DNA of 39,957 nucleotides from Lautropia sp. SCN 69-89 (GTDB lineage: Bacteria; Pseudomonadota; Gammaproteobacteria; Burkholderiales; Burkholderiaceae_E). The stretch lies in NCBI GenBank assembly GCA_001724855.1, contig MEED01000066.1:1-39957 (forward strand), given 5' to 3'. The translations under genes and the position numbers were made by a program. Below the pieces are notes generated by a model. The model was not told where the DNA came from. It searched no databases and saw only the letters and a program-made list of their open reading frames with translations. Shown here piece by piece: positions 8,679 through 34,843 of the stretch (position 1 is its first letter; every line of letters starts with the position of its first letter).

Positions 8679-9592
8679 ATCGAATCCATCTCGCTCGCGT
8701 CGCGGGCTGCGTCGCGCTGGCAGCCGGCGTCGCGGCCGGCACGGCCCTGGCGGCCGGCGAACCGTACCGCGAGACCTATCCGCGCGCGCAGATCGACCCG
8801 GCGCGCGGCGTCGAGGGCGACGTCGGCTTCAGCGACACGATCCAGTACTGGAGAACCGAGCAGGCGCTGCAGCGTCACGCCGGCTGGGTCGGCGATCCGC
8901 AGCAGCAGTGGAAGCTCAACTGGAAGTTCATGGACCTCGACCGCATCGACCTGCATCCGGGACACTTCGCCGTCGAGACCGGCGAGGCGCGTGCCGCTGC
9001 GCTGGCCAAGCGCGACCGGCGTTTCCTCAGCTGCCTCGGTGAGGGTCGCGAGAATCTCGCCGGCCTGGCGGCCCACTACCCGAAGTACGACGCGGCGCTG
9101 GGCCGGGTGGTGACGGTCGAGGACCGCATCGAGAGCTGCGCCGCCGCCGCGCCGGGCGAGAAGGTGCCGCAGGGCTCGGTGGCCAACAACGAGATCTCGG
9201 TCTGGTTCAAGTCGCTGTCGGCGGGCAAGCCGATCCGCGTCGACATCGGCGACCCGCGGCTGCTGGCGGCATACCGGCGCGGCGAGGACCTCTTCTACGC
9301 GAAGACCGGCCAGCTCAACTTCGCCTGTGCATCGTGTCACGTGCCCGGCAGCATCATGGGCCACAAGCTGCGCGGCGAGACGCCGACCACGCCCTTCGCG
9401 GATGCCGCGCACTACCCGACCTACCGCACGCCGGTGAGCATGCTCGAGTCGATCCAGCAGCGCTTCGCGCGCTGCCACGGACAGATGCGCACGCAGGCAC
9501 TCGCCCCGGGCGATCCGGCCTACGTCGACCTCGAGGTGTTCATGACCGTGCTTTCCAACGGGTATCCGGTATCGGTGCCCTCGGCTCGCTGA
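8675..9592 (+). CDS. soxA: SoxA, mono-haem thiosulfate-ligating cytochrome subunit
   Basis: A 305-aa periplasmic protein with a signal peptide ending near ALAAG (residue 28). SoxA is the catalytic subunit of SoxXA. The C-terminal domain has the haem motif C218-A-S-C221-H222 and the active-site cysteine at 267 in QQRFARCHGQMR, the residue that carries persulfide in this family. The N-terminal domain has no CxxCH. Instead Cys120 (FLSC) and Cys155 (IESC) remain, as in the mono-haem SoxA type in which the first haem is replaced by a disulfide. It overlaps soxX by four bases and is followed 32 bp later by soxY. Confidence 0.96.
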   Translation: MNRIHLARVAGCVALAAGVAAGTALAAGEPYRETYPRAQIDPARGVEGDVGFSDTIQYWRTEQALQRHAGWVGDPQQQWKLNWKFMDLDRIDLHPGHFAVETGEARAAALAKRDRRFLSCLGEGRENLAGLAAHYPKYDAALGRVVTVEDRIESCAAAAPGEKVPQGSVANNEISVWFKSLSAGKPIRVDIGDPRLLAAYRRGEDLFYAKTGQLNFACASCHVPGSIMGHKLRGETPTTPFADAAHYPTYRTPVSMLESIQQRFARCHGQMRTQALAPGDPAYVDLEVFMTVLSNGYPVSVPSAR

Positions 9593-20978: not shown

Positions 20979-21037
20979 GTCGCGTGCCTCGCCGTTGATG
21001 AATTCCGCAGTCTACTGGACGGGCCCGAGGGATCGGG

Positions 21038-21050: not shown

Positions 21051-21701
21051 ATGGTCAAGCCCGCCCCCGCCAGGGACCGTACGGTCAGCCGCGATCCCGA
21101 AGCCACCCGCGAGGCCATTCTTTCCGCCGCCACCGACGAGTTCGCGCAGCACGGGCTCGCCGGGGCGCGCGTCGATCGCATCGCCGAGCGCGCCGGCGTC
21201 AACAAGCGGATGCTGTACTACTACTTCGGCCAGAAGGAAGGGCTGTTCCTGGCCGTTCTCGAGGGCGCGTATCAACGCATCCGCGAGGAAGAGCACAAGC
21301 TGAACCTCACGCAGGTCGAGCCCACCGAGGCGATCCGCCGTCTGGTGGCCTTCACCTGGGAGTACCACATGGCGCATCCGGAGTTCGTCACGCTGCTGAA
21401 CACCGAGAACCTGTATCGCGCCAGGCACCTGAAGAAGTCGTCGAGGGTGCGCACCTGGCACTCTCCGTTCGTCGCGATGATCGCCGAGGTGCTCGAGCGT
21501 GGCCACAAGGCGGGAGTGTTCCGTGCCGGCGTCGACCCGGTGCAGCTGTACATCTCGATCGCCGGCCTGGCGTATTTCTACCTGAGCAACCGCTTCACGC
21601 TGTCGACGATCTTCGATCGCGACCTGATGACACCGAAGTCGCGGGTGGAGCGGCTGTCGCACATGACCGACCTGGTGCTCGGCTACCTCGTGCGCGACTG
21701 A
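21051..21701 (+). CDS. TetR/AcrR-family transcriptional regulator
   Basis: A 216-aa repressor-type protein. The N-terminal helix-turn-helix spans about residues 20-65, with TREAILSAATDEFAQHGLAG, then RVDRIAERAGVNKRMLYYYF and QKEGLF, an orthodox TetR domain. The C-terminal ligand domain includes HPEFVTLLNTENLYRARHLKKS, a pattern I associate with RutR/YcdC-like TetR proteins. It is convergent with the adjacent ABC importer operon (16-bp gap), and no other regulator lies near the catabolic genes to 32272. Three copies of an inverted repeat in the promoters of that block are the likely binding sites. This assignment is inference. The protein is probably released by an intermediate of the pathway. 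Confidence 0.9.
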   Translation: MVKPAPARDRTVSRDPEATREAILSAATDEFAQHGLAGARVDRIAERAGVNKRMLYYYFGQKEGLFLAVLEGAYQRIREEEHKLNLTQVEPTEAIRRLVAFTWEYHMAHPEFVTLLNTENLYRARHLKKSSRVRTWHSPFVAMIAEVLERGHKAGVFRAGVDPVQLYISIAGLAYFYLSNRFTLSTIFDRDLMTPKSRVERLSHMTDLVLGYLVRD

Positions 21702-21717
21702 GTCGCCCCGGGCTGCT

Positions 21718-22485
21718 TCAGTCCATGCCGAGCAGCTTGTAGATGCGCCGCGTGTAGGCGCCGAATTTCTCGCTCGTCTTGATGTCGAGCGTGCGCGGAC
21801 GCGGCAGGTCGATCTCGAAGTTGTCGGCCATGCGCGCCGGCCCGGCGGTGAAGACGACCACGCGCGTGCCGAGGAACACCGCCTCGGAGATGCCGTGCGT
21901 GACGAAGATGATCGTCTTGCCCGATTCCTTCCAGATGCGCAGCAGCTCGAGGTTCATCTTCTCGCGCGTGAGCGCGTCGAGCGCGCCGAACGGCTCGTCC
22001 ATCAGCACCAGCTTCGGGTCGTGCACCAGCGCGCGCGCGATCGCCGCGCGCTGCTGCATGCCGCCCGAGAGTTCGTACGGGTACTTGTCTTCGTAGCCCG
22101 CGAGGCCGACCAGCGCGAGCAGCTCGCGGCCGCGCTCGCGCGCCGCGGCCATCGGCAGGCCGAGCAGTTCGGCCGGCAGCAGCACGTTGTCGAGGATGCG
22201 CCGCCACTTCAGCAGCAGCGGCGCCTGGAACACCATGCCGATGTCGCGCGCCGGATCGAACGGATGCGTGGAAGAGCCGATGCGCACCTCGCCACCGTCG
22301 TGCGGATGCAGCCCGGCGAGGATCTTCAGCAGCGTGGACTTGCCGCAGCCCGACGGACCCACCAGAGAGACCAGCTCGCCGGGCATCACGTCGAAGCTGG
22401 CGTCGGAGATCGCCAGGTGTTCCTTGCGTCCGGTGCGGTAGACCTTGGTGACGCCGGACAGATGAATGAAGGGTTCGACGCTCAT
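21718..22485 (-). CDS. ABC transporter ATP-binding protein, nitrate/taurine/NMT1 type
   Basis: A 255-aa ATPase with Walker A (GPSGCGKST, near residue 44), Q-loop (GMVFQAPLLLKWRRILDNV), signature (ELSGGMQQRAAIARAL), Walker B (LVLMDEPFGALDALTRE) and the H-loop (FVTHGISEAV). These match the SsuB/TauB/ThiZ-like importer class. It energises import together with the permease encoded just upstream (four-base ATGA overlap at 22482-22485) and the binding protein encoded at 24510. It is the last gene of a minus-strand operon with the permease and the DapA-like gene. Confidence 0.95.
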   Translation of the reverse strand: MSVEPFIHLSGVTKVYRTGRKEHLAISDASFDVMPGELVSLVGPSGCGKSTLLKILAGLHPHDGGEVRIGSSTHPFDPARDIGMVFQAPLLLKWRRILDNVLLPAELLGLPMAAARERGRELLALVGLAGYEDKYPYELSGGMQQRAAIARALVHDPKLVLMDEPFGALDALTREKMNLELLRIWKESGKTIIFVTHGISEAVFLGTRVVVFTAGPARMADNFEIDLPRPRTLDIKTSEKFGAYTRRIYKLLGMD

Positions 22486-23249
22486 CCGACGCGCGCGTCC
22501 TTCGGCACCAGCAGGCGCTCCATGCCGAGCACCACCCCGTAGAGAATCATGCCGAGCAGCGTGATCAGCATCACGGCCATGAACATTGCCGGCGTGTCGA
22601 GCGTGACCTGCACCTGCAGCATCAGGTAGCCCAGCCCCTTGTCGGAACCGAGGAACTCGCCGACGATCGCGCCCGCGACCGCGAGGATTGCGGCGACCTT
22701 CATGCCGGCGAAGATGTAGGGCAGCGACCCGGGCAGCTGGATCTTGATGAACAGCTGCCAGCGCGAGCCGCGCAGCGAGCGGACCAGGTCGAGCAGGTCG
22801 GGCTCGATCTCGCGCAGGCCGCGCGCGGTGGTGAGCAGGATCGGGAACACCGCGATCGAGAACGCCATGACCGTGTTCGGGAAGACGCCGTACTTGAACC
22901 AGACGATGATCAGCGGCCCGAGTGCCACTTTCGGGATCATGTTCAGCGTGACGAGAATCGGCATGAACAGCGATTCGAGCGTCTTCGACCAGGTGAAGAC
23001 GAGCGCGAGCAGCACGCCGATCACCAGCGCCAGGAAGTATCCGCCGAAGATCTCGGTGGCGGTGACCGACACGTTGGCCCACCAGTCGTAGTTCGGCGAC
23101 AGCAGCGCTTCGAAGGTGGCCCCTGGCGACGGCATCACGAACTTCGGCACGTCGCCGAGGCGCACGAACAGGTACCAGATCACGAGCAGCCCGAGGTGGG
23201 CGAGCACCGCCAGTGCATAGCGGCCGAGCGAGGTATTGAGCCGATCCAT
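22482..23249 (-). CDS. ABC transporter permease, nitrate/taurine/NMT1 type
   Basis: A 255-aa inner-membrane permease with about six helices. The cytoplasmic coupling loop is visible as PLIIVWFKYGVFPN and the EAA-like stretch GLREIEPDLLDLVRSLRGSR...IKIQLPGSLPYIFAGMKVA, typical of SsuC/TauC/ThiX-like permeases. A homodimer would form the channel. The ATG at 23249 follows the DapA-like stop by 14 bp. It overlaps the ATPase gene by four bases, so the importer components are translationally coupled. Confidence 0.95.
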   Translation of the reverse strand: MDRLNTSLGRYALAVLAHLGLLVIWYLFVRLGDVPKFVMPSPGATFEALLSPNYDWWANVSVTATEIFGGYFLALVIGVLLALVFTWSKTLESLFMPILVTLNMIPKVALGPLIIVWFKYGVFPNTVMAFSIAVFPILLTTARGLREIEPDLLDLVRSLRGSRWQLFIKIQLPGSLPYIFAGMKVAAILAVAGAIVGEFLGSDKGLGYLMLQVQVTLDTPAMFMAVMLITLLGMILYGVVLGMERLLVPKDARVG

Positions 23250-23263
23250 CGCGCGGGATTCCG

Positions 23264-24325
23264 TCAGGCGAGCCACTTCGACAGGTTGGCGGCGACGAAC
23301 GCGTCGTCCGACAGGTCGGCATGCTCGCGGCAGACGCGGTCGATCTCTTCGGCCTGGCCGGGCGACAGCGCCTCGGACGGGTCGAGGCACCAGGTGCCGG
23401 CCATCAGGCCCTGGCGGCGCAGCACCTCGTGGCAGCCGGGAATGCAGCCGGCGAAGTCGTGCGCGACGTCGAAGAACGCGCTGTTGCAGTCGGTGACGCG
23501 CGAATCGAGCGCGAGCAGTTCCGCGTCGATGCGGCCGGAGTCGATCGCGGCGTGGATGCGATCGAGCAGCGCCACCGCGCTCTTCGTCCAGACGCTCCAG
23601 TGCCCGAGCAGGCCGCCGCGGATGCGCACCGTGACCTGTTCGTCGCCGCGGCGCACCGCGAACGGCGCCAGCAGGTCGAGCACGATGTGGTCGTCGTTGC
23701 CGGTGTACAGCGTCACCCTGTCCTGCGCGCCCGCCGCGACGACGCCGCGCACCACGTCGAGCGTGCGATAGCGGTCGAACGGCGCCATCTTGACCGCGAC
23801 GACGTTGTCGATCGACGCGAAGCGGCGCCAGAACTCGGCCGGCAACGCGATGCCGCCCACCGCGGTCTGCAGGTAGAAGCCTGTCAGCGGGATGACGCGA
23901 GCCACCGCCTCGCAATGCGCGATCAGTTCGTCGAGCGACGCGCCTTTCATCGCCGCCAGCGAAAGCAGGCCGGCGTGGTAGCCGTGGCCGAGCGCGACCT
24001 GCGCCTCGCTGCATGCCTGCGCGGTGCGTCCGGCGAGCCCGGCGATCATCACCAGCGGCCGATCGGTGGCTTCGCGGGCGGTGCGGGCTGCGAGTTCGAG
24101 CACCGGTTCGTACAGCCCCACCTCGCGGATCGCGAACTGGGTGGAATGCACGCCGACGGCCAGTCCGCCGCAACCGGCGTCGACGTAGTAGCGGGTGAGC
24201 GCGCGCTGGCGCACCGGGTCGAGCCTGCGCGAGGCGTCGAGGGCGAGCGGGTGTGCGGGAATGACCGTGCCGCGCCGAAGCAGCGCCAGCACCTCGGCGG
24301 GCAAATCCGACCGGTGAAGGGACAT
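23264..24325 (-). CDS. Dihydrodipicolinate synthase/N-acetylneuraminate lyase-family aldolase
   Basis: A 353-aa TIM-barrel protein of the DapA/NanA superfamily, which uses a Schiff-base lysine to make or break a C-C bond next to a keto acid or to dehydrate sugar acids. The likely catalytic Lys179 lies in NVVAVKMAPF, with Tyr151 in GFYLQTAVGG at the usual position. It is about 50 residues longer than DapA, mostly at the C-terminus. It is not next to lysine-synthesis genes. It heads the importer operon, so it probably acts on the imported compound or a product. Its promoter contains operator-like site A. Confidence 0.85.
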   Translation of the reverse strand: MSLHRSDLPAEVLALLRRGTVIPAHPLALDASRRLDPVRQRALTRYYVDAGCGGLAVGVHSTQFAIREVGLYEPVLELAARTAREATDRPLVMIAGLAGRTAQACSEAQVALGHGYHAGLLSLAAMKGASLDELIAHCEAVARVIPLTGFYLQTAVGGIALPAEFWRRFASIDNVVAVKMAPFDRYRTLDVVRGVVAAGAQDRVTLYTGNDDHIVLDLLAPFAVRRGDEQVTVRIRGGLLGHWSVWTKSAVALLDRIHAAIDSGRIDAELLALDSRVTDCNSAFFDVAHDFAGCIPGCHEVLRRQGLMAGTWCLDPSEALSPGQAEEIDRVCREHADLSDDAFVAANLSKWLA

Positions 24326-24342
24326 TGCGGGAAAATGCTTGT

Positions 24343-24371
24343 TTATCTCGCGCCGACGGCTCGGCTATACT
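24343..24371 (+). promoter_or_regulatory. Candidate promoter for the binding-protein gene
   Basis: TATACT at 24366-24371 is a good -10, with a weak TTATCT at 24343-24348 spaced 17 bp before it. Operator-like site A lies 11 bp downstream of the -10. The binding-protein ATG follows at 24510 with AGGAGA before it. Confidence 0.4.
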
Positions 24372-24381
24372 TGGCGGTGAT

Positions 24382-24397
24382 GTAACCAGACAGTTAA
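24382..24397. promoter_or_regulatory. Operator-like inverted repeat, site A
   Basis: GTAACCAGACAGTTAA contains TAACC-N5-GTTA, an inverted repeat with arms TAAC/GTTA. It lies between the divergent promoters of the DapA-like gene and the binding-protein gene, four bases downstream of the minus-strand -10. Sites B and C carry the same pattern and spacing. Confidence 0.6.
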
Positions 24398-24400
24398 TTT

Positions 24401-24429
24401 ACTCTAACGCAGCGGCCCGCCATCGTCAA
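24401..24429 (-). promoter_or_regulatory. Promoter of the DapA-like/ABC importer operon
   Basis: On the minus strand TTGACG (24429-24424) and TAGAGT (24406-24401) are separated by exactly 17 bp, a near-consensus sigma-70 promoter. Site A follows immediately, so a bound repressor would cover the start point. Confidence 0.65.
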
Positions 24430-24509
24430 CGACTGCGGCGCGTTGACGGTGCTTCGAGCACGCCGATCGCATCGCCCACCCTGCCGCGACCGAAACACCA
24501 GGAGACACC

Positions 24510-25502
24510 ATGTTCGCGCGAACGATACTCGGAGCCGCGGCCGCGGCCATCGCTTTTGCCTCGGCGCCCGCGCTGGCGCAGCAGAAGCTCGACTTCATCC
24601 TCAACTGGGTGCCGGGCGGCGACCACGCGCCCTACTACTACGCGAAGAAACTGGGCTGGTACGCGAAGGAGGGCATCGACCTGAACCTCGAGCCAGGCAA
24701 GGGCTCGGCGCTGGCCACGCAGAAGGTGGGCGCGGGCGCGAATCCGGTCGGCCTGGCCGACATGGCCGGCGTGCTGGTCGCGAAGGGCAAGGGTGCCGAC
24801 ACGGTCGCGGTCTTCAACGTCTACGCGAATTCGCCGCAGGGCATGTACTGGCTGAAGAGCTCGGGCATCAAGGGCGTGAAAGACTTCGCCGGCAAGAAGA
24901 TCGGCAACCCGGCGGCCGACGGCGCGCGCGTGATGTGGCCGGCGCTCGCCAGGGCCAACGGCCTCGATCCGAAATCGGTCACCTGGGTGAACATCGACGC
25001 CAACGCGAAGCTCGCGGCGCTGAAGGCGAAGTCGATCGACGTGACGACCTCGTTCTACAACCTGCACCACGTCTTCCAGCGCGAGCTGGGTGACGACATG
25101 GGCTTCCTCGCCTGGCGCGACGCGGGCCTGAACCCGTACGGCAACTCCATCATCGTCAACGCGAAGTTCCTGGAAGCCAACCGCGCGACGATCGACAAGT
25201 TCGTCAAGGTCACGCAGCGCGCGTTCGCCGCCTGCGTGAAGGAACCCGAACCCTGCGTGCAGGCGCTGGTCGACGCCAACGGAGCGCTGAAGTTCGACAA
25301 CGAGTTCACCAACTGGAAGCTCGTCGAAGTGCTGATGAGCGACAAGTTCTCGCGCGAAGTGGCGCTGGGCATCCACGAAGACGGGCGGATGAAGGCGGAC
25401 TACGAGCTGGTGAAGGAGTACATCGGGCTGGACAAGCCGTTCGACGTGAAGACGGTCTACACGAACGAGTTCCTCGATCGCTCCATCAAGATGCCAAAGT
25501 GA
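24510..25502 (+). CDS. ABC transporter substrate-binding protein, NMT1/THI5-like
   Basis: A 330-aa periplasmic receptor with a signal peptide ending ALAQQ (residue 24). The mature sequence begins KLDFILNWVPGGDHAPYYYAKKLGWYAKEGID, the standard opening of NMT1/THI5-like binding proteins. Such proteins bind pyrimidines, riboflavin precursors, sulfonates or aromatic compounds; the ligand cannot be chosen from sequence. Two cysteines (AACVKEPEPCVQAL, about residues 243 and 250) may form a disulfide. It is transcribed away from the operon that encodes its ATPase and permease, from the shared control region around 24343-24429. Confidence 0.93.
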   Translation: MFARTILGAAAAAIAFASAPALAQQKLDFILNWVPGGDHAPYYYAKKLGWYAKEGIDLNLEPGKGSALATQKVGAGANPVGLADMAGVLVAKGKGADTVAVFNVYANSPQGMYWLKSSGIKGVKDFAGKKIGNPAADGARVMWPALARANGLDPKSVTWVNIDANAKLAALKAKSIDVTTSFYNLHHVFQRELGDDMGFLAWRDAGLNPYGNSIIVNAKFLEANRATIDKFVKVTQRAFAACVKEPEPCVQALVDANGALKFDNEFTNWKLVEVLMSDKFSREVALGIHEDGRMKADYELVKEYIGLDKPFDVKTVYTNEFLDRSIKMPK

Positions 25503-25520
25503 TCTCCGCTGCGGCGGCGG

Positions 25521-25904
25521 CGTTTACGTCCCGACGGGCTGTGCGCGGGCGCCGCTTCGGGGACGGCTTCGGGTCTCGGCGCTGCGAGGGGGCGCTGCCC
25601 GGCGGCGGGGCGTAGCGCTCGCGTGCGCCCCGGGGCGCTGGCCCCGCTTCGCGGGGCTTCCCTCGCCTTCCTCGGAATTCCGCACCCGCGGCCGACACGC
25701 GCTGCGCGCGTGACGGCGACGGGTCCCGCGGAATTCCTTTCGGAAGCGCTCGGCTTGCACAGGCCCGGCGCATGCCGAGCCGCACAGCGCCCCGGGGCGC
25801 ACGCGAGCGCTACGCCCCGCCGCCGGGCAGCGCCCCCTCGCAGCGCCGAGACCCGAAGCCGTCCCCGAAGCGGCGCCCGCGCACGGCCCGTCAGGACGCA
25901 AACG
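25521..25904. repeat. Large inverted repeat, two 120-bp arms around a 144-bp centre
   Basis: The left arm 25521-25640 and the right arm 25785-25904 are reverse complements over 120 bp with only three mismatches, all near the outer end. The centre (25641-25784) has a further hairpin, GCCCCGC-TTC-GCGGGGC at 25641-25657, and two copies of GGAATTCC. The element fills most of the 434-bp gap between the convergent binding-protein and GNAT genes. Its high identity suggests recent origin or maintenance, for example two head-to-head copies of a dispersed repeat or a non-autonomous element. No transposase or flanking target duplication was identified. The remaining bases of the gap show nothing recognisable. 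Confidence 0.85.
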
Positions 25905-25936
25905 CCGAACGAGGCTCCGATCCGCTGAAGGGGGCG

Positions 25937-26872
25937 TCAGCCGAGCTCGGGGCCGGCTACGAGGACGACGGGGGTGGGGTCGCCGGGGGCTCTGCGCAGG
26001 CCCCGGGTCATTCGGGTGAAGGGGCGCTGGAAGGCGAAGCCGCGGGACTGGAGCCAGGGGAGCAGGTCGGAGTGGCGGTCGGCGAGGTCGAGGTAGACCG
26101 GGCCGCCGATGGTGGAGAGGGCGGCTTCGAGAAGGGCGCGTGCGGTGGCGGTGTCGGGGGCGAGCAGCGGGCCGAGCTGGCTGGCTTCGCGGCCGTCGCG
26201 GCCGAAGACGAAGCCGGTGATGCGGCCGTTGTGTTCGGCTGCGTGGGCGGCGCGGGGCAGGCGCGCGGCGAGCGAGCGCAGCAGCGCTTCGCGGTCGGCG
26301 CCGAAGGCCGGGCGATCGATGCGGAGGATTGCCGGCCAGTCGGCGTCGCGCAGCGGGCGCACGGCGGCGCTCTCCGAGGTCTCGGTGACGCCGGGGCTGC
26401 TTGATGCGGCGGCCGGTACCGGCCTCGCGGCCGCCGTGCCGGCGCTGCCGCTGCGCGTGCCCGCCGGCGCTTCGCGCCGATAGCGGCTGAATCCCCAGCA
26501 GTCGACGAAGCCCAGCGGCAGGTAGATCGGGCGGCCGGCGGGTGTGGCGTCGAGGATCGCCGCGATGCCGCGCCACGCCAGTTCGTCGAGCGCGTGGGCG
26601 AGCAACTGCGTCGCGTAGCCGCGTCCGCGGAACTCGGGCAGCACCAGCACCATGCTGACCCATGCGAACTCGCTGCCGTAGGGCAGCGTGGCCACCGATG
26701 CGGCGAGTCGCTCGATGCCGGCGGCATCGGCGGCGCGAATGCCCCAGGCGCGCCCCAGCGTGAGCATCAGGCGCCAGTCGGCTTCGTTCTGGTTCCACGA
26801 GGCCGAGGCCGACAGCGCGACCGCTTCGGCGAGGTCGGCAACGGCCAGCCGCGCGATCTCAATACTTGCCAT
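25937..26872 (-). CDS. Two-domain GNAT acetyltransferase-like protein
   Basis: A 311-aa protein. The N-terminal domain (about 1-135) is a GNAT fold with an acetyl-CoA-binding motif, VLVLPEFRGRGYATQLL. After an Ala/Ser/Pro-rich linker (about 135-165) comes a second GNAT-like domain (about 170-290) lacking an obvious R/QxxGxG/A motif, ending RGFAFQRPFTRMTRG, the pattern of YitI/DUF1248-type C-terminal domains. It may acetylate a small metabolite or an amino-sugar intermediate; the substrate is unknown. Its start overlaps the SDR gene by 14 bp, so it belongs to the minus-strand catabolic operon. The linker length and low complexity are unusual but in frame. Confidence 0.85.
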   Translation of the reverse strand: MASIEIARLAVADLAEAVALSASASWNQNEADWRLMLTLGRAWGIRAADAAGIERLAASVATLPYGSEFAWVSMVLVLPEFRGRGYATQLLAHALDELAWRGIAAILDATPAGRPIYLPLGFVDCWGFSRYRREAPAGTRSGSAGTAAARPVPAAASSSPGVTETSESAAVRPLRDADWPAILRIDRPAFGADREALLRSLAARLPRAAHAAEHNGRITGFVFGRDGREASQLGPLLAPDTATARALLEAALSTIGGPVYLDLADRHSDLLPWLQSRGFAFQRPFTRMTRGLRRAPGDPTPVVLVAGPELG

Positions 26873-27899
26873 CTCGGGTCGAGAAGTGCGTCGGCTTGCC
26901 CAGGCTCGGCTGGCCGCGCTCGATCCAGTCGGCGACCCAGTCGATCATCGTGTCGATCGGCACGCGCGGCTTGCCGAACAGGCGCTGCGACTCGGTGGTG
27001 TCTTCCAGCCACGCGGTGGGCGCTTCCTCGCCCACCAGCACCGGCTTGCGCCCGAAGCGCCTGCCGAACTCGCTGGCCAGCCAGCGGACGCTCGTGTGCC
27101 CGGGGCCGGTGATGTTGATCGGCGAAGTGGGGGTCGTGCAGTGCGCGAGCAGGCGCAGCGACTGCTCGTTCGCGTCGCCCTGCCAGATCACGTCGGCGTG
27201 GCCCATCGTGATGTCGAGCGGCGTGCCGCCGAACACCGCGGAAGCGACGTCGAAGAGCACGCCGTAGCGCGTGTCGATCGCGTACGAGAGCCGCACCAGC
27301 CGGCCGGGCGTGCCGTACCTGTGCGAGCCGTGCTCGAACATCCGCTCGCGGCCGACGCAGGAGTTTGCGTAGTCGCCCGGCGGCGGCGTGGCCGGCGTGC
27401 GCTCGTCGGCGCCCGGGCCATCCACCGGCACGAACGGATACACGCATGCGGTGGAGAACGCCACGATGCGCATCTCGCGGAAGGTCTCGGCCACCATCAT
27501 CGGCACGCCGACGTTCATCATCCAGGTGAGCGACGCGTTGTCGGCGGCGCCGAACTTGTGTCCGGCCATGAAGACCAGGTTGCGCACGCCGTCACCCACG
27601 TTGGGCAGGTGCTCGAGCGCGGACCGGTCGAGCAGGTCGCAGGCGATGCACTCGACGCCGTGGCGCTCGAGCGAGGCGACGAGCGTCGGGTCGGAGAATC
27701 GCGCGACGCCGATCACGCGTCGACCGGGCGCGGCGCGGCGCGCCATGCGCGCCAGCGTCGGCCCCATCTTGCCGCCGACGCCGAGCACCATGATGTCGCC
27801 GTCGACCTTCGCGAGGTCGGCGACCAGCGCCGGGGAGGGTTCGCTCATGAAGGTTTCGAGCGCCTCGACGTCGTCGAAGCGCTGCGGCAGGGCGGTCAT
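26859..27899 (-). CDS. NAD-dependent epimerase/dehydratase-family (extended SDR) protein
   Basis: A 346-aa protein with an N-terminal Rossmann fold, GDIMVLGVGGKMGPTLARM (GxxGGKxG type), and an extended-SDR core (FSTACVYPF). The catalytic Tyr is in GDYANSCVGRERM, but the lysine four residues later in the YxxxK motif is Cys. Family enzymes oxidise, epimerise or dehydrate sugars; loss of the Lys makes normal hydride chemistry doubtful. The ATG at 27899 has a GGAGA ribosome site. It is the middle gene of the MetE-core, SDR, GNAT operon. The match to epimerases is clear from the fold motifs, but the reaction is unknown. Confidence 0.8.
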   Translation of the reverse strand: MTALPQRFDDVEALETFMSEPSPALVADLAKVDGDIMVLGVGGKMGPTLARMARRAAPGRRVIGVARFSDPTLVASLERHGVECIACDLLDRSALEHLPNVGDGVRNLVFMAGHKFGAADNASLTWMMNVGVPMMVAETFREMRIVAFSTACVYPFVPVDGPGADERTPATPPPGDYANSCVGRERMFEHGSHRYGTPGRLVRLSYAIDTRYGVLFDVASAVFGGTPLDITMGHADVIWQGDANEQSLRLLAHCTTPTSPINITGPGHTSVRWLASEFGRRFGRKPVLVGEEAPTAWLEDTTESQRLFGKPRVPIDTMIDWVADWIERGQPSLGKPTHFSTRDGKY

Positions 27900-27967
27900 G
27901 TCGGTCTCCAGTCGAATGCTGTCGCGGGCGCGCGTGCTGCGCCCGCGCGCGGCGGGTGGGTGCAGCT

Positions 27968-28984
27968 TCAGCCAGGCTCGCGGGTCGCGATGCCTTCGAA
28001 GCGGTCGCGGCCGGCGCGAAGCGCCCGGATCTTGGCGTCGGCGATCGAGCGCTTGAGCATCCAGAAGCCGCAGTCGGGGTGGATGTAGCGCACGCGGCCG
28101 GCGCCGAGCGTCTTTTCGGCGCGCTCGATCGCGCGCGCCACGTCGTCGGCGCTCTCGACGTCGGTCACCTTGATGTCGACGACGCCCAGCCCGAAGCCGA
28201 TGCGCGGATCGAGGTCGGCGAACACCGCGAGTTCCTCGGGTGGCCGGTGCGCGCATTCGAGCACCACGTGGTCGGCGTGCAGCGCGTTCAGGTAGCGCAG
28301 GAGCTTGTCCCAGCCGCCCTTCTGCACGGTCTGGCCGCCGTAGTTGCCGAAGCACAGGTGCACCGCGGGCGTGCCGGGCACCGCGTCGAGCACGCGGTTG
28401 ATCGCCGACGCCGCCCATTCCCATTCGTCGGGGTGGCCGGGCAGGTTCGCTTCGTCGATCTGCACCACGTCGGCGTCGAGGTGGCGCACCTGCGAGGCCA
28501 GTACGTCGGCCAGCGCGTGCGCGAGCTCGGGCATGCCGCGGTAGTGCCGGTCGATCAGCGTCTTGGCCAGCATGTGCGGGCCGGTGACGGTGAACTTGAA
28601 CGGTTTCGCCGCCAGCGCCTTCGCCCGCGCGCAGGCGAGCGGCAGGTCGAGGCTGCCGTGACCGAGCGGCCCGATCACGGTGCCCGGCGGGCGGGTGCGG
28701 AACTTCATGCCGCTGTCCGAGCGCCAGGCGATCAGGTCGTCGAACGAGAAGCGCTGCGTGATGCCGTCCATCGGGCGCACGAAGTATTCGATCATCCCGT
28801 TGGTCTCGGGATGGTCGATGTCGAAGCGGTACAACTCGCCGTCGCAGACCAGGTCGATGCCGGCCTGCTCCTGGATGCCGATCACCACGCGCGTGGCGTC
28901 GAGCAGCGCCTGTTCGGACGGGCTCGCAACGAGCCAGTCGGGCACCGGATAGGAGCCGACGACGGTGGTCTTGATCCTGGGCAT
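27968..28984 (-). CDS. Stand-alone MetE-core (cobalamin-independent methyltransferase-type) protein
   Basis: A 338-aa protein equivalent to the C-terminal barrel of MetE. The four zinc ligands are all present: H209 and C211 (VHLCFGNYGG), E243 (LECAHRPPE) and C305 (HPDCGFW). The family VQIDEANL segment is also intact. Full MetE is more than twice as long, and its N-terminal half is missing, so this is not normal methionine synthase. Short members of this family include methyl- or alkyl-thiol transferases such as epoxyalkane:coenzyme M transferase. In this operon it may move a methyl or alkyl group from the imported compound to a thiol. That is inference. Its promoter carries site B. Confidence 0.85.
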   Translation of the reverse strand: MPRIKTTVVGSYPVPDWLVASPSEQALLDATRVVIGIQEQAGIDLVCDGELYRFDIDHPETNGMIEYFVRPMDGITQRFSFDDLIAWRSDSGMKFRTRPPGTVIGPLGHGSLDLPLACARAKALAAKPFKFTVTGPHMLAKTLIDRHYRGMPELAHALADVLASQVRHLDADVVQIDEANLPGHPDEWEWAASAINRVLDAVPGTPAVHLCFGNYGGQTVQKGGWDKLLRYLNALHADHVVLECAHRPPEELAVFADLDPRIGFGLGVVDIKVTDVESADDVARAIERAEKTLGAGRVRYIHPDCGFWMLKRSIADAKIRALRAGRDRFEGIATREPG

Positions 28985-29012
28985 GGGTGGAATCCGCTGG
29001 CGGGCTGGTTGT

Positions 29013-29026
29013 TAACCGGATGGTGA
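29013..29026. promoter_or_regulatory. Operator-like inverted repeat, site B
   Basis: TAACC at 29013-29017, five bases, then GTGA at 29023-29026: the site A/C pattern with one mismatch in the second arm. It sits just downstream of the minus-strand -10. An overlapping shorter repeat, GGTT-GTT-AACC at 29007-29017, may strengthen it. Confidence 0.5.
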
Positions 29027-29033
29027 GTAATCG

Positions 29034-29062
29034 ATGGTAGCGCGACGCCCGCCACGCTTCAA
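29034..29062 (-). promoter_or_regulatory. Promoter of the MetE-core/SDR/GNAT operon
   Basis: Minus-strand TTGAAG (29062-29057) and TACCAT (29039-29034) are 17 bp apart. Each matches four of six consensus bases. Site B starts seven bases downstream, and the MetE-core ATG is at 28984. Confidence 0.5.
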
Positions 29063-29068
29063 GCGCTC

Positions 29069-29098
29069 TTGACGCAGCGACCTGCGCGGCCCTAGACT
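29069..29098 (+). promoter_or_regulatory. Promoter of the Gfo/Idh-DUF993-TIM operon
   Basis: TTGACG at 29069-29074 and TAGACT at 29093-29098 with an 18-bp spacer make a near-consensus sigma-70 promoter. Site C begins three bases after the -10, and the Gfo/Idh ATG follows at 29134. Confidence 0.65.
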
Positions 29099-29101
29099 GA
29101 T

Positions 29102-29115
29102 TAACCAACGAGTTA
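29102..29115. promoter_or_regulatory. Operator-like inverted repeat, site C
   Basis: TAACC (29102-29106), five bases, GTTA (29112-29115), within TTAACCAACGAGTTAC. It covers the expected transcription start of the plus-strand operon. Spacing is identical to sites A and B. Confidence 0.6.
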
Positions 29116-29133
29116 CAAAAACGGGCTTTGCCA

Positions 29134-30285
29134 ATGGGCACGCAACGACTCGGCATCGTGATGCACGGCGTCACGGGCCGCATGGGGATGAACCAGCACC
29201 TGATCCGCTCGATCAGGGCGATCCGCGAGCAGGGCGGCGTGAAGCTTGCCAACGGCGATCGGGTGATGCCCGATCCGATCCTCGTCGGGCGCGGCGCCGA
29301 GCGCATGGAGGCGCTCGCGAAGGCGCACGGCGGACTGCGCTGGAGCACCGACCTCGACCGCGCGCTGGCCGACCCGCAGGACACGGTGTTCTTCGACGCC
29401 GCCACCACGCAGATGCGCCCGTCGCTGGTGAAGAAGGCGATCGCGGCCGGCAAGCACGTCTATTGCGAGAAGCCGTCGGCGACGAACCTCGCCGAGGCGA
29501 TGGAGATCTACCAGGCGGCGCGCAAGGCCGGCGTCAAGCACGGCGTGGTGCAGGACAAGCTGTGGCTGCCGGGGCTGCTCAAGCTGAAGATGCTGATCGA
29601 CTCGGGCTACTTCGGCCGCATCCTGTCGGTGCGTGGCGAGTTCGGTTACTGGGTGTTCGAGGGCGACCTGCAGCCTGCGCAGCGTCCGTCGTGGAACTAC
29701 CGCAAGGAGGACGGCGGCGGCATCATCCTCGACATGCTGTGCCACTGGCGCTACGTGGTCGACAACCTGTTCGGCGAAGTGAAGAGCGTCTCGTGCCTGG
29801 GCGCCACGCACATCCCGCAGCGCCGGGACGAGAACGGCAAGCCGTACGCGGCCACCGCCGACGACGCGGCGTACGCCACCTTCGTCACCGACCAGGGCGT
29901 CATCGCGCACTTCAACAGCTCGTGGTGCGTGCGCGTGCGACGCGACGACCTGCTCACGCTGCAGGTCGACGGCACGCATGGTTCGGCGGTGGCCGGCCTG
30001 CGCAGCTGCCGCACGCAACCGCGCGTGAACACGCCCAAGCCCGTCTGGAATCCCGACCTGCCGCAGCCGATCGACTTCTTCGAAGGCTGGCAGGAGGTGC
30101 CAGACAGCGTCGTGTTCGACAACGCGTTCAAGGCGCAGTGGGAGCTGTACATCCGCCACGTCGTCGAGGACGCGCCGTTCCCGTGGAACCTGCGCGAGGG
30201 CGCCAAGGGCGTGCAGCTGGTCGAGGCCGGGCTGCAGTCGTGGCGCGAGCGCCGCTGGGTCGACCTCGAAGCGCTCGAAGCCTGA
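29134..30285 (+). CDS. Gfo/Idh/MocA-family oxidoreductase
   Basis: A 383-aa NAD(P)-dependent sugar or polyol dehydrogenase-type protein. The N-terminal Rossmann region ([13 protein letters not shown], atypical in its exact glycine spacing) leads to the EKP signature in [16 protein letters not shown]. The C-terminal beta-sheet domain carries [19 protein letters not shown], where the Asp/His pair is at the usual catalytic place. Such enzymes often oxidise a sugar carbon to a ketone so that the next enzyme can eliminate or cleave. I chose ATG 29134 over a TTG six bases earlier. It starts an operon with the DUF993 and TIM-barrel genes (11-bp gap, then a four-base overlap), controlled by the promoter with site C. 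Confidence 0.9.
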
Positions 30286-30296
30286 CGGGGCCGTCG

Positions 30297-31475
30297 ATGC
30301 CGACGATCGTCCTGCCCACCGCCGACGGCCGCCTGGCGCCCTTCACGCTGTCGGCGCCCGGGGGCTGGCCGCAGCGCGCAGCCGGCGCGTTCAACCGCGT
30401 GGCCTATTCGGCGGCGCACGTGGTCGCCGATCCGCTCGCGCCGGTCGACCCGTGGATCGACTGCGCGATCGACTGGGACACCACGATCGCGTATCGCAAG
30501 CGGCTGTGGTCGCTCGGCCTGGGCGTGGCCGAGGCGATGGACACCGCGCAGCGCGGCATGGGGCTCGACTGGCCCACCTCGCTCGAGCTGATCCGGCGCT
30601 CGGTCGACGCGGCGCGCGACCACCCGGGCGCGCTCGTCGCCTCGGGATGCGGCACCGACCACGTGGCCGCGAATCCGTCGATGTCGATCGACGCGGTCGT
30701 CGCCGCCTACGAACAGCAGATGGAGGCGATCGAGGCGCTCGGCGGACGGCTGATCCTGATGGCGAGCCGCGCGCTGGCCGCCTGCGCGAAGACGCCCGAC
30801 GACTACGGTCGCGTCTACGACCGGCTGCTCTCGCAGGTGCGCGAGCCGGTGATCATTCACTGGCTGGGCGACATGTTCGACCCGGCGCTGGCCGGCTACT
30901 GGGGCCACGCCGACCCGATGGCTGCGATGGACGTCGCGGTCGACATCCTGAACCGCCACGCCGCGCGCGTCGATGGCGTGAAGATCTCGCTGCTCGACAA
31001 GGACAAGGAGATCGCGATGCGGCGCCGGCTCGCGCCCGGCATCCGCATGTACACCGGCGACGACTTCAATTTCGCGGAGTTGATCGCCGGCGACGAGCAC
31101 GGTTACTCGGACGCGCTACTCGGCATCTTCGACGCGATCGCGCCGGCTGCGTCGGCGGCGCTGAGCGCGCTGGCCGTGGGCGACACCGCCCGCTTCCACG
31201 AGATTCTCGGCCCCACCGTGCCGCTGTCGCGTCACGTCTTCTGCGCGCCCACGCGCTTCTACAAGACCGGCGTGGTGTTCATGGCGTGGCTCAACGGCCA
31301 CCAGGATCACTTCGTGATGGTGGGCGGCCAGCAATCGACGCGCAACATCCGGCACCTGGCCGAACTCTTCCGGCTCGCCGACGCGGCCGGCCTGCTCGAA
31401 GATCCCGATCGGGCCTGCGCGCGGATGGCGCAGCTGCTCGCCACCCAGGGCCTCGACGCGCGGGTGAGGAAGTGA
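30297..31475 (+). CDS. DUF993-family protein (DapA-superfamily-like)
   Basis: A 392-aa protein that I recognise as DUF993, a poorly characterised family found beside Gfo/Idh and sugar-isomerase genes. The sequence shows LILMASRALAACAKTPDDY, HWLGDMFDPALAGYWG and VDGVKISLLDKDKEIAMRRRL. The last contains a lysine placed like a Schiff-base lysine in class I aldolases, but this is only a suggestion. There is no signal or membrane segment. It starts 11 bp after the Gfo/Idh stop. The stop codon overlaps the next start (GTGA). A C-C or dehydration step on a keto-sugar-like intermediate is plausible. Confidence 0.8.
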   Translation: MPTIVLPTADGRLAPFTLSAPGGWPQRAAGAFNRVAYSAAHVVADPLAPVDPWIDCAIDWDTTIAYRKRLWSLGLGVAEAMDTAQRGMGLDWPTSLELIRRSVDAARDHPGALVASGCGTDHVAANPSMSIDAVVAAYEQQMEAIEALGGRLILMASRALAACAKTPDDYGRVYDRLLSQVREPVIIHWLGDMFDPALAGYWGHADPMAAMDVAVDILNRHAARVDGVKISLLDKDKEIAMRRRLAPGIRMYTGDDFNFAELIAGDEHGYSDALLGIFDAIAPAASAALSALAVGDTARFHEILGPTVPLSRHVFCAPTRFYKTGVVFMAWLNGHQDHFVMVGGQQSTRNIRHLAELFRLADAAGLLEDPDRACARMAQLLATQGLDARVRK

Positions 31476-32272
31476 GTGCGCCGCCGCGCGCCGAACTGCT
31501 GTCGCTGAACACCGCGACGGTGCGCGAGCAGTGGAACCTGCGCCAGATGATCGAGGGCTGCGCGCGCCACGGCATCCGCGGTATCTCGCCGTGGCGCGAC
31601 AAGCTCGACGAGCTCGGCGCGCAGGAGGCCGCGCGGCTGATCCGGCAGCACGATCTCACCGTCACCGGCCTGTGCCGCGGCGGGATGTTCCCTGCCGCCG
31701 ACGCTGCCGGGCGACGCGCGGCGATCGACGACAACCGGCGCGCGATCGACGACGCGGCGACGATCGGCGCGCGCTGCCTGGTGCTGGTGGTGGGCGGCAT
31801 CCCCGCCGGCTCGAAGGATCTCGCCGGCGCGCGCCGGATGGTGATCGACGGCATCGCCGCGGTGCTCGACCATGCGCGCGCGAGCGGCGTGCCGCTGGCG
31901 ATCGAGCCGCTGCATCCGATGTACTGCGCCGATCGCGCCTGCGTGAACACGCTCGACCAGGCGCTCGACATCTGCGACGCGCTCGATCCCTCGCCGCCGG
32001 GTGCGGCACCGTCGGGCGCGATCGGCGTCGCGGTCGACGCCTATCACGTCTGGTGGGACCCGAACCTGCCGCGCGCGCTCGAGCGCGCGCGCCCCGAGCG
32101 GCTGCTCGCGTATCACATCTGCGACTGGCTGGTGCCTACCACCGACCTGCTGCTCGACCGCGGCATGATGGGCGACGGCGTGATCGACCTTCCGGCGCTA
32201 CGCGAGCGCGTGGAGGCGAACGGCTATCGCGGCTTCCACGAAGTGCGGGAGCGGTACTTGGGCTGCAGTTGA
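31472..32272 (+). CDS. Xylose-isomerase-like TIM-barrel sugar epimerase/isomerase
   Basis: A 266-aa member of the AP-endonuclease-2/xylose-isomerase-like TIM-barrel family (IolE, Dte-type). The usual metal-binding acids and histidine are in order: Glu in LAIEPLHPMY, Asp in AVDAYHVWWDP, His in AYHICDW and Glu in GFHEVRERY. Such enzymes isomerise, epimerise or dehydrate keto-sugars. The GTG at 31472 overlaps the DUF993 stop, so it is translationally coupled. It ends 103 bp before the stop of the opposing lipoprotein gene, with a strong hairpin between. Together with the Gfo/Idh gene it suggests oxidation followed by carbonyl chemistry on a sugar-like substrate. Confidence 0.87.
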   Translation: MSAPPRAELLSLNTATVREQWNLRQMIEGCARHGIRGISPWRDKLDELGAQEAARLIRQHDLTVTGLCRGGMFPAADAAGRRAAIDDNRRAIDDAATIGARCLVLVVGGIPAGSKDLAGARRMVIDGIAAVLDHARASGVPLAIEPLHPMYCADRACVNTLDQALDICDALDPSPPGAAPSGAIGVAVDAYHVWWDPNLPRALERARPERLLAYHICDWLVPTTDLLLDRGMMGDGVIDLPALRERVEANGYRGFHEVRERYLGCS

Positions 32273-32374: not shown

Positions 32375-34843
32375 TCAGGGCCAGAAGGCGCCGAGCAGCG
32401 GCTCGTCGCTGCCGCTCGAATACTCGGACCACAGCACCACGGCGCGGCCCGACGCGCCGACGGCCAGCGCGCGTTGCCAATCGACGCGCCCGTCCTGACT
32501 GCTCGAAGCCAGGCGCTGCGCATCGTGCCAGGTGCCATCGTGAACGCGGGCCCAGGTCTGGTAGATCGAGTTCGTCTCGTCGCTCTGCTTCCAGCTCACG
32601 ACGAGGCGGCCGGAGGCGTTCATCGCCGCGTTTGGCGACTCGGCCCAGCGGCCGACCGTCGACAACCGCTCCAGCGCGCCCCAGCCGCCGGCGGTCGAGA
32701 AGCGGCGTGTCCAGATCGCGTCCTTGCCGTCGCCGTCGCGCAGCATCCAGACCGCGGCGGCGTCGCCGCCGGCCGACCCGGCGAGCGCCAGGTTGCGCGC
32801 GAAGGGCCAGCCGATCGCGTCGACGTCGGCCGGTGCGCTCCACCCTGTGTTGCCGGTCGAGCGAGACCAGCGCAGGCGGTCCCCGCCGTCGGTGGAGTCG
32901 ATCCAGATGGCCAGCGCGTTGCCGTCCGCGTCGACGGTGACGCGCGACGTGCCCACCGATCGCCCCTTCTCCCGTATCACCTGGGGCGATCCGAAGCCGC
33001 TGCCCAGGTCGACCGGCACCGCGATCACCGTGTCCGAGGTCTCGCTGAAGACCACGAAGCCTCGCCCGGTGCCGTTGACGGCCATCGAGATCACGCCGGA
33101 GATCGCGCCGCGGTCGATCGCCGCCGGCGACGACCAGCCGGCCCCGGCGTCGATGCTCGCGTAGACACCGTACCGGCCGCCGGCATCGGGCTGCGACCAG
33201 ACGAGCAGCGCGCGACCGGTGTCGTCGATCGCGAGATGGTGTTCGCTCGAGTTGCCGGACAGCGAGGTGTCGACACGCACCACTGGTCCCCAAGCGCTGC
33301 CGTCGAAACGCGCCGCGGCGAGGTGATACGCGCTGCCGATCGCGTAGCCCCAGGCCGCTACTGCCCTGCCGTCGGTTGCCACGGCGAGGCGGGTTTCATA
33401 ACCGTTGACACCACCGTCGATAAGCGCTGGCGCCGACCAGCCGCCGCCACTGGCGCTGGCGCTGGCGAAGTAGGCGCGCGCGGTGGTCTGGCCCGGTGGG
33501 TAGGCCATCCAGACGGCGAGGGCACGGTCACTGCCGTCGATGCCGGCCGCCGGGTCGTAGTTCGTACCGAGGGCCTGTATGGTCGACGCTGCGGACCACA
33601 CAGTCGTTGCCGCCTCCTTGACCGTGAGCGTCGCTGCGATGCTCGACTCGCTTCCCGCCGTGTTCGTCGCAACGACGCGGAACTGGTTGCCGTCATCCGT
33701 GATCGTTGTGGCGGACGTCGTATGGGTCGCGGCCGTCGCTCCCGCGATGTCGACCCAGGTGGCACCGTCGGTCGACCGCTGCCACTGCAGCGTCGGCGCC
33801 GGGGTTCCGCTGGCCGAAGCGCTGAACGTGGCCGTCATTCCGACGGTCACCGTTGCATTCGCCGGTTGCGTGACGAAAGTCGGTGCCACTGCCGGCAGCG
33901 GGGCGATGTTGTCGCCATAGAACATCAGCGTCCCGCCGGCCGACGCCCGATAGCTGCGACCAGGCCGCTGGCACGAGAAGCGCACGTCGTACGCGCCGAG
34001 CCCGTTGTCGGCCTCCGACATCGGCAGTTGCCAGAGGTGGTTGCCGCGGCGTCGTTTCGCGTTTTCGGGATCAGTGCTCAGCGGCACCGCGGTGTCGATC
34101 AGCGTCGCGGCAAGACGGCCGCCGTTCGCGCGGCGCGTGACTGTGAGTTTCGCGTCGCCGCAGTCCGCTGCAGCCGAGTAGTTCAGCGTGATGTCGAGCG
34201 TCGTGGCCTTCGTGACCGTCCACGCGATCGACTCGGGGCCACTGTGACGCTTCGTGATCGCGTCGGCTATCGAACTCACGACGCTCGGCTGCACGTTGGG
34301 CGTGACGCAACTGTACGGATCGTCGGTTCGCGGCGCGCAGACGCCGACCATGAACCACGAGAAGGAGTTGGCCAGCCACGACGCCGTACCGCCGTCGATC
34401 GTTGCGCCGACCGGCAACCAGACGTCCGACGGCGACGCCTTGAACGGCAGCTGGTCGTTCGCCCCGGCCGTCCACGGCATCTCGATCGTCACCGGATAGA
34501 GGAAGACGAGATCGTGTGGCGTGATCTCGTAGACCTTGTCGCCGACGGTGTAGCCATCGGGCGGCGCCGAAGGGCTGCCGGCGGCGGTGCGCGCAATGCG
34601 GATCACGGTCGGCTCGGTGAGAGCGCCTGCCGGGATCTTGACGACCACGCCAGCGGGGCCGGTGACCGTGCCGCCCTCGGCGCCGATCGTCGCGCTGGCC
34701 TCGACCACCTGTGCAGGCGGATCGTCCCCGCTGCTGCACGCCATGAGAATCGCTGCAAACAGGCCGGCGATGCCGGCCCGGATCATGCGACGAACGCAGG
34801 AGCCTTCTCCGCCGGCCTGCGGCGGACCATCGAAACCATCCAT
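32375..34843 (-). CDS. Large lipoprotein with ZU5-like, Ig-like and repeated propeller-type segments
   Basis: An 822-aa exported protein. The ATG at 34843 has AGGGGAAA before it. A signal segment (IRAGIAGLFAAILMAC) ends at a lipobox Cys (residue 36), so it is probably lipid-anchored. Residues about 45-170 resemble a ZU5 domain (IGAEGGTVTGPAGVVVKIPAGAL). About 330-420 is an Ig-like domain (VTQPANATVTVGMTATFSASA ... QWQRSTDGATWVD). From about 430 to the end, some eight repeats of about 45-50 aa carry motifs such as RALAVW, RAVAAW, RALLVW and NALAIW, suggesting a beta-propeller. It may bind ligands or polymers at the cell surface; no enzyme motif is visible. A 5' leader with a bulged hairpin (34866-34890) precedes it. 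Confidence 0.8.
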   Translation of the reverse strand: MDGFDGPPQAGGEGSCVRRMIRAGIAGLFAAILMACSSGDDPPAQVVEASATIGAEGGTVTGPAGVVVKIPAGALTEPTVIRIARTAAGSPSAPPDGYTVGDKVYEITPHDLVFLYPVTIEMPWTAGANDQLPFKASPSDVWLPVGATIDGGTASWLANSFSWFMVGVCAPRTDDPYSCVTPNVQPSVVSSIADAITKRHSGPESIAWTVTKATTLDITLNYSAAADCGDAKLTVTRRANGGRLAATLIDTAVPLSTDPENAKRRRGNHLWQLPMSEADNGLGAYDVRFSCQRPGRSYRASAGGTLMFYGDNIAPLPAVAPTFVTQPANATVTVGMTATFSASASGTPAPTLQWQRSTDGATWVDIAGATAATHTTSATTITDDGNQFRVVATNTAGSESSIAATLTVKEAATTVWSAASTIQALGTNYDPAAGIDGSDRALAVWMAYPPGQTTARAYFASASASGGGWSAPALIDGGVNGYETRLAVATDGRAVAAWGYAIGSAYHLAAARFDGSAWGPVVRVDTSLSGNSSEHHLAIDDTGRALLVWSQPDAGGRYGVYASIDAGAGWSSPAAIDRGAISGVISMAVNGTGRGFVVFSETSDTVIAVPVDLGSGFGSPQVIREKGRSVGTSRVTVDADGNALAIWIDSTDGGDRLRWSRSTGNTGWSAPADVDAIGWPFARNLALAGSAGGDAAAVWMLRDGDGKDAIWTRRFSTAGGWGALERLSTVGRWAESPNAAMNASGRLVVSWKQSDETNSIYQTWARVHDGTWHDAQRLASSSQDGRVDWQRALAVGASGRAVVLWSEYSSGSDEPLLGAFWP

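Follow-up and report, generated by a model that had tools for sequence, protein, structure and literature searches.

The interval 21051-32272 of a 39,957-nucleotide stretch of DNA from Lautropia sp. SCN 69-89 (contig MEED01000066.1; the whole stretch is hereafter called the window) is probably one horizontally transferable catabolic regulon, repressed by a TetR protein and serving the import, oxidation, isomerisation and cleavage of a polyhydroxylated acid-like compound, and including a methyl-type step. When genes were called with a codon model fitted to the window and scanned against Pfam and NCBIfam, 11 were placed in this island, where an earlier note on the same DNA had counted ten adjacent ones; the genes named in that note, among them those of one complete ATP-binding cassette (ABC) importer, are all found where it had placed them. 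Two divergent intergenic gaps are the starting points of four gene groups, dapA-abcP-abcA, sbp, metE-sdr-gnat and gfo-DUF993-tim, which we take for operons on the grounds of gene order and spacing. The reading as one TetR-linked regulon is supported by conserved synteny, by a common and conserved operator-like repeat, and by the presence or absence of the block at one site in the genus. The host genome is a 3.8-Mb draft whose sole DUF993 match falls in the island.

Presence and absence of the block in the genus

Within the genus, hemE was detected in all 18 genomes examined and folE in 13 of them, and 12 have the two genes on a single contig. In five genomes (G000, G060, G062, G070, G072) the two genes are 12.1-15.8 kb apart, folE being separated from araC-hemE by the block; in six (G061, G066, G067, G068, G069, G071) the distance is 0.9-1.2 kb and araC is the sole window gene between them; in G064 they are 2.1 kb apart, with a DUF599 gene between. 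When the window is compared with G067, homology ends at 21023 and restarts at 35236, and about 140 bases stand in place of the interval. In G061 and G066 a DUF993 locus is present at another genomic place. Such a patchy distribution of an intact set speaks for one functional unit that may be horizontally transferable, the pattern not distinguishing gain from loss. The insertion interval also holds, at 32375-34843, the gene of a long protein with ZU5 and Ig-like domains, which is missing from four related blocks (L029, L031, L032, L035).

Conservation of the gene set

Related loci were gathered in scans that started from DUF993 and, independently, from MetE. The MetE scan kept the best 80 of at least 538 relatives, many of them on short contigs and the near relatives not independent of one another; metE was called in 75 of these 80 loci, and the 72 with a MetE less than 90% identical to that of the window were used for counts. 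Within the fetched flanks of these 72 loci, sdr was found in 41, sbp in 37, gnat in 36, abcP in 35, dapA in 31, abcA in 29, DUF993 in 29, gfo in 25, tim in 21 and tetR in 19, and each of seven outside window genes (folE, malic, hhh, hemE, araC, ig, duf599) in none. In 16 of the 72, four or more of tetR, abcA, abcP, dapA, sbp, gnat and sdr are found alongside two or more of gfo, DUF993 and tim.

The search from DUF993 gave 20 family-level loci by tblastn (chosen from 25 places in other genomes by excluding fragments and one partial contig), with gfo in 17, tim in 16, metE in 14, sdr and gnat in 11 each and dapA in 7, several of the contigs ending within the block. Another 20 order-level and 20 further loci were picked from 31 and 42 matching genomes, respectively (L073, in the further set, belongs to the same order): gfo-DUF993-tim occur together in 11/20 and 12/20 of these, and tetR is present in 8/20 and 13/20. 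Locus counts are low for L038, L044, L126, L128, L148, L150 and L152, where few or no genes were called (metE was not called in the last five), and some genomes are present twice under different locus identifiers, e.g. L032 and L093. Seen from both starting points, the gene content is that of two modules, a Gfo-DUF993-TIM core and a MetE-SDR-GNAT-DapA-importer module, which appear to have one operator in common and are often, not always, together. Two metagenome-assembled genomes titled Bordetella parapertussis are among the matches, one (L122) with much of the block and the other (L124) with metE and sdr; the titles resemble automatic mislabels.

A common operator-like repeat

The inverted repeat TAAC-N6-GTTA occurs in one exact copy per divergent gap. 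The first copy (24380-24399, core 24383-24396) lies between dapA-abcP-abcA and sbp, the second (29099-29118, core 29102-29115) between metE-sdr-gnat and gfo-DUF993-tim, and a degenerate third copy with one mismatch is found at 29010-29029 (core 29013-29026). Dinucleotide shuffling of the window, repeated 100 times, gave 0.01 exact copies on average and in no case the two that the window has. An initial search for motifs common to the window's gaps had returned a long inverted repeat only.

The repeat is conserved in related loci, which bears out the earlier note's proposal of four units sharing operator-like sites. It is present in 79 of 328 intergenic regions upstream of module genes vs none after one mononucleotide shuffle of those regions, and the regions that carry it are spread over 54 of the 124 loci that yielded such regions, in Alpha- and Betaproteobacteria. 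It stands upstream of dapA in 21/32 cases, gfo in 23/42, sbp in 27/60, metE in 24/73 and tetR in 11/43, and is absent upstream of tim (0/12), gnat (0/12) and DUF993 (0/38), the inner genes of their groups. Other intergenic regions carry it in 16 of 789 cases, several of which are duplicates of module regions or adjoin module genes missed by the labels: identical regions were counted once, and the "non-module" sites in L093, L107, L127 and L133 are module regions dropped as duplicates. Coding DNA has one site in the 2.1 Mb searched. The 75 distinct 20-mers give the consensus wwKTAACYRnnYRGTTAmww, of which a stricter form has a single occurrence in the 3.8-Mb genome, at 24380.

The presumed repressor of the island is encoded by tetR (21051-21701, + strand), whose product has TetR_N and TetR_C_29 domains and whose orthologues adjoin the module or the core in many loci; a palindromic site is conserved alongside the regulator. 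A frame error around this gene was considered and rejected: tetR lies on the + strand, inside a longer open frame.

DUF993 and the DapA-like protein

The DUF993 gene (30297-31475, + strand) matches PF06187 at 617 bits vs a cut-off of 24, over model positions 1-382 of 382. Its AlphaFold model (pLDDT 85.7) is a TIM barrel with the fold of dihydrodipicolinate synthase (DHDPS). The best structural match is 4dnh (SMc04132; TM 0.94, 69% identical), the closest solved relative, and dihydrodipicolinate synthases come next (Foldseek to 7lvl, TM 0.84 by target length, E 1.7e-10). In the superfamily of DHDPS and N-acetylneuraminate lyase (NAL), which are class I aldolases, the Schiff-base lysine is on strand 6 and a catalytic tyrosine at the end of strand 5. 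Judged by secondary structure, Lys229 of DUF993 falls within a strand of the model (225-230) that would be strand 6, and it is a lysine in 84 of 86 sequences (residue counts here and below cover sequences longer than 80% of the window protein, with identity floors of 60% for gfo and 45% for tim). DUF993 thus resembles these aldolases in fold and lysine and differs from them in an identity of about 15% to DHDPS/NAL structures and in the residue, His188, that takes the place of the catalytic tyrosine. The two exceptions, with K229 changed to Arg and H188 to Gln, are L045 and L046, exactly the two DUF993 genes without any module gene, so both residues seem to be of importance in the pathway. These two genes are about 60% identical and perhaps represent a paralogue with another role.

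The DapA-like gene (23264-24325, - strand) reaches only 23 bits to PF00701 vs a cut-off of 22.1 and has no NCBIfam match, and its assignment as an ordinary DapA was rejected. The predicted model (pLDDT 92.8) has the DHDPS/NAL superfamily fold, and Tyr151 and Lys179, on strands 5 and 6, are kept in 37/37 sequences, the lysine being aligned with that of the NAL structure 8u8w. The pyruvate-binding motif of the superfamily is G-x-T/S-T-G-E, and the protein departs from it: the stretch reads GVHTTQ in the window protein, with HTTQ facing STGE of the alignment partner. With this fold in both models, the earlier suggestion that DUF993 and the DapA-like protein could cleave or dehydrate a substrate fits.

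The MetE core and its partners

The metE gene (27968-28984, - strand; PF01717) encodes what the earlier note took for a MetE-core zinc protein, an identification with which the residues agree. Aligned with 3rpd and 1t7l, the zinc ligands H209, C211, E243 and C305 are retained in 84/84 sequences, as are the homocysteine residues E50 and D177; S11, placed by eye outside the HMMER alignment, is found in 77/84, with seven gaps. Homocysteine-binding Ser, Glu and Asp are described for MetE and MesD in an excerpt of PMC7857596. The island protein thus resembles the core methionine synthases MesA-MesD in consisting of the MetE catalytic domain alone and in retaining the zinc ligands and the contacts to homocysteine. 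It is unlike them in its distance from MesD (100 bits with the profile to 3rpd, a MesD protein), in its place in a presumed catabolic regulon, and in the presence of MetH in the same genome. The nearest named models are methionine synthases, all below cut-off. Since the genome also encodes MetH and yields three other Meth_synt_2 matches, the MetE core is not the sole methionine synthase candidate, and a role as the only one was rejected. MesX (DUF1852), which partners MesD, was absent from the own-genome search results, an absence of no evidence value since the control likewise gave none anywhere. Five loci with close relatives of the MetE core (70-73% identical; L158, L163, L166, L170, L171) have another neighbourhood in common, which encodes HpaB, a member of the PEP-mutase family, acyl-CoA-dehydrogenase-like proteins (named by eye) and an amidohydrolase.

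Downstream of metE on the same strand are sdr (26859-27899), which encodes an extended SDR (PF01370), and gnat (25937-26872), a family match with two GNAT-like stretches that is a conserved partner in related loci. In 16 of the 80 loci of the MetE scan, the PhyH family of Fe/2-oxoglutarate (Fe/2OG) dioxygenases is represented by a gene that stands one to four genes away from metE, one representative having been scanned.

The Gfo/Idh and TIM proteins, the importer and related loci

The gfo gene (29134-30285, + strand) encodes a Gfo/Idh/MocA oxidoreductase with the Pfam domains of the family and 3oqb as its closest solved relative. Its family is marked by an EKP lysine and a D-x3-H motif, and K113, D200 and H204 are retained in 62/62 sequences. 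The xylose-isomerase-like TIM barrel encoded by tim (31472-32272, + strand; AP_endonuc_2) has 3qc0 and 3ju2 (SMc04130) as its closest solved relatives; isomerases and epimerases of this family hold their metal with a quartet of E, D, H and E, here E145, D189, H215 and E257, all kept in 62/62. A Gfo/Idh dehydrogenase is paired with a xylose-isomerase-like TIM protein in myo-inositol (IolG, IolE, IolI) and rhizopine (MocA, MocC) catabolism, and IolI (1i60) is a distant match of the island TIM; unlike the island, these pathways have, to our knowledge, no DUF993, DapA-like protein, MetE or NMT1 importer. The island's own importer is made up, by family matches, of an NMT1/THI5-type substrate-binding protein (sbp, 24510-25502, + strand), an SsuC/NrtB-like permease (abcP, 22482-23276, - strand) and an ATPase (abcA, 21718-22485, - strand).

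Several partner genes recur near related cores. An enolase-superfamily-like gene (cluster 6) is present in 20/67 loci, its representative reaching 30.3 bits to MR_MLE_C vs a cut-off of 29.4 and having no match among solved structures. A second TIM protein, D-tagatose 3-epimerase-like, also occurs, as do genes like those of 2-hydroxy-3-oxopropionate reductase (3/67, cluster 79) and glycerate-2-kinase (4/67, cluster 53). Some other proteobacterial DUF993 loci have a CoA transferase (7/67), a crotonase (7/67) or an aldehyde dehydrogenase (6/67). Without naming the compound, these partners point to one that is polyhydroxylated, probably acidic, and cleaved to C3 or acid units.

The relatives of the TIM protein (3ju2) and of DUF993 (4dnh) that have been structurally solved, SMc04130 and SMc04132, come from Sinorhizobium meliloti. 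L048, a locus of this species whose gene content suggests that it corresponds to the SMc041xx genes in strain 1021, is a run of tetR, gfo, DUF993, a gene annotated as mandelate racemase, and tim, in which both tetR and gfo are preceded by operator matches. It differs from the island in its flanks, a sugar-type ABC importer and further Gfo/Idh genes, and metE, sdr, gnat and dapA are in none of the six plasmid records examined. SMc04132 is listed as an uncharacterized protein in an excerpt of PMC12542648. Our searches of openly licensed papers turned up no text naming DUF993 or PF06187, nothing on what the solved relatives or the genes of those S. meliloti locus tags do, and no relevant paper on the family combinations tried; this is not proof of novelty, and it fits the earlier view that the combination is undescribed.

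Proposed pathway and alternative explanations

If the island is one regulon, the TetR repressor would bind the 20-bp inverted repeat in both divergent promoter regions and keep the four operons off until released by the imported substrate or by one of its products. The NMT1-type importer would take up a small polar, probably acidic, polyhydroxylated compound, in which the Gfo/Idh protein would oxidise a hydroxyl to a ketone and the TIM protein, presumably metal-dependent, would carry out an epimerisation or dehydration next to that ketone. DUF993 could then cleave (or dehydrate) the keto acid via a Schiff base on Lys229, and the DapA-like protein would be a second Schiff-base lyase. MetE-SDR-GNAT would form an add-on module, where the zinc protein may transfer a methyl-like group between the substrate branch and a homocysteine-like thiol. 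The reactions are inferred from family and residues, and their order, the repression and its inducer are likewise proposals; that the substrate is a modified sugar acid is a guess.

A number of observations weigh against this reading. Outside the family, metE is rare beside DUF993, being present in just 4/20 order-level and 1/20 further loci, and DUF993 is found in only 29 of the 72 MetE loci, so that core and MetE module are often separate. Ahead of metE and tetR, the repeat is present in under half of the module regions, the window's own tetR has no exact or one-mismatch copy upstream, and the stricter operator pattern misses the site at 29102, which matches the looser form only. The importers beside related cores vary (TctABC carboxylate, sugar-type ABC or NMT1), so the importer does not fix the substrate. 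At the level of catalysis, DUF993 has His188 (His in 84 of 86 sequences, Gln in 2) instead of the DHDPS tyrosine and is therefore filed as sharing the fold, not as DHDPS or NAL, and a profile comparison of DUF993 with the DapA-like family gave no sequence similarity. The catalytic motif of extended SDRs is YxxxK, and the SDR lacks its lysine: it reads Y177-A-N-S-C181, with Tyr177 kept and Cys at the expected lysine position in 48/48 sequences, an odd conserved change. The earlier note had proposed one TetR-controlled system that neighbourhoods without the association would refute. Synteny, the common repeat and the presence or absence of the block uphold it, and the sets do recur together, but the system consists of two modules sharing one operator, and with the core often free of MetE the refuting observation applies to part of the set.

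The same separation could mean that two independent systems lie side by side, one with the importer, DapA and MetE and the other a Gfo-DUF993-TIM pathway of its own. The core trio is common without MetE, and MetE has other contexts, such as the five loci with HpaB and PEP-mutase family genes described above. Against this, the same repeat precedes both sets in the window and in relatives, both are within one block in the genus, and 16 of the 72 MetE loci hold substantial parts of both, which makes two systems rather unlikely. An aldarate-like route ending in glycerate is unlikely too: an acid sugar would be dehydrated, DUF993 would release pyruvate and tartronate semialdehyde, and a reductase and glycerate kinase would follow. 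Galactarate and glucarate degradation (Gar/Gud) proceeds through an enolase-superfamily dehydratase, a DHDPS-family lyase, 2-hydroxy-3-oxopropionate reductase and glycerate kinase, and genes that look like the first, third and fourth of these are among the partners counted above, together with TctABC carboxylate importers in some loci. Yet few of the sampled loci have the reductase and kinase genes, these score below NCBIfam cut-offs, and neither they nor an enolase-superfamily gene are in the window's block.

More doubtful still is a salvage of methionine or one-carbon units, with the MetE core as a folate-independent methionine synthase of the Mes type and the other genes supplying its methyl donor. 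In its favour, the island protein agrees with MetE and MesD (3rpd) in the zinc ligands and in the Glu and Asp that bind homocysteine, and the PhyH-like gene near metE in 16 of 80 loci could be set beside MesD, which is reported to require oxygen (excerpt of PMC7857596). MetH and the three further Meth_synt_2 matches speak against it, as does the lack of MetE from most wider DUF993 loci. A chance neighbourhood in a GC-rich genome, for which nothing was found in favour, is refuted by synteny and operator counts and has a negligible probability. The regulon that we prefer can also be given a more specific form, which is a long shot: the aerobic catabolism of a methylated polyhydroxy acid or cyclitol, with a corrinoid-free demethylation in which the stand-alone MetE-type zinc enzyme (accompanied in 16 of 80 related loci by the PhyH-type dioxygenase gene) would pass the methyl group into methionine, and with DUF993 as a new Schiff-base C-C lyase in which His replaces Tyr.

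Other features of the window

The gap between sbp and gnat holds a near-perfect inverted repeat of 123 nt (25518-25640 and 25785-25907), with arms 98% complementary and separated by 144 nt. Parts of this intergenic element, mainly around 25640-25758, occur in 15 of the 18 genomes of the genus, several as inverted pairs some hundred bases apart. Elsewhere in the window, a SoxA/TsdA-type cytochrome c gene lies at 8675-9592, with small neighbours that may belong to a sulfur-oxidation set, and a short frame at 5596-5934 carries a CxxCH haem-binding motif, its start by eye apparently split off through a frame change.

Significance

A regulated catabolic island is a known kind of system; this one has the DUF993 family at its centre. 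We found no described function for DUF993, though the structure of one member has been available since 2012. Its link to a conserved regulon, in which the operator can be read, the partner enzymes have their active sites intact and the binding protein is specific to the cluster, makes that function directly testable in a laboratory rhizobium. A role would also be suggested for a large clade of core MetE proteins, with at least 538 relatives in one scan. If the pathway for a methylated polyhydroxy acid or cyclitol were true, the common operator would allow a single substrate to be assigned throughout the genomes carrying the set.

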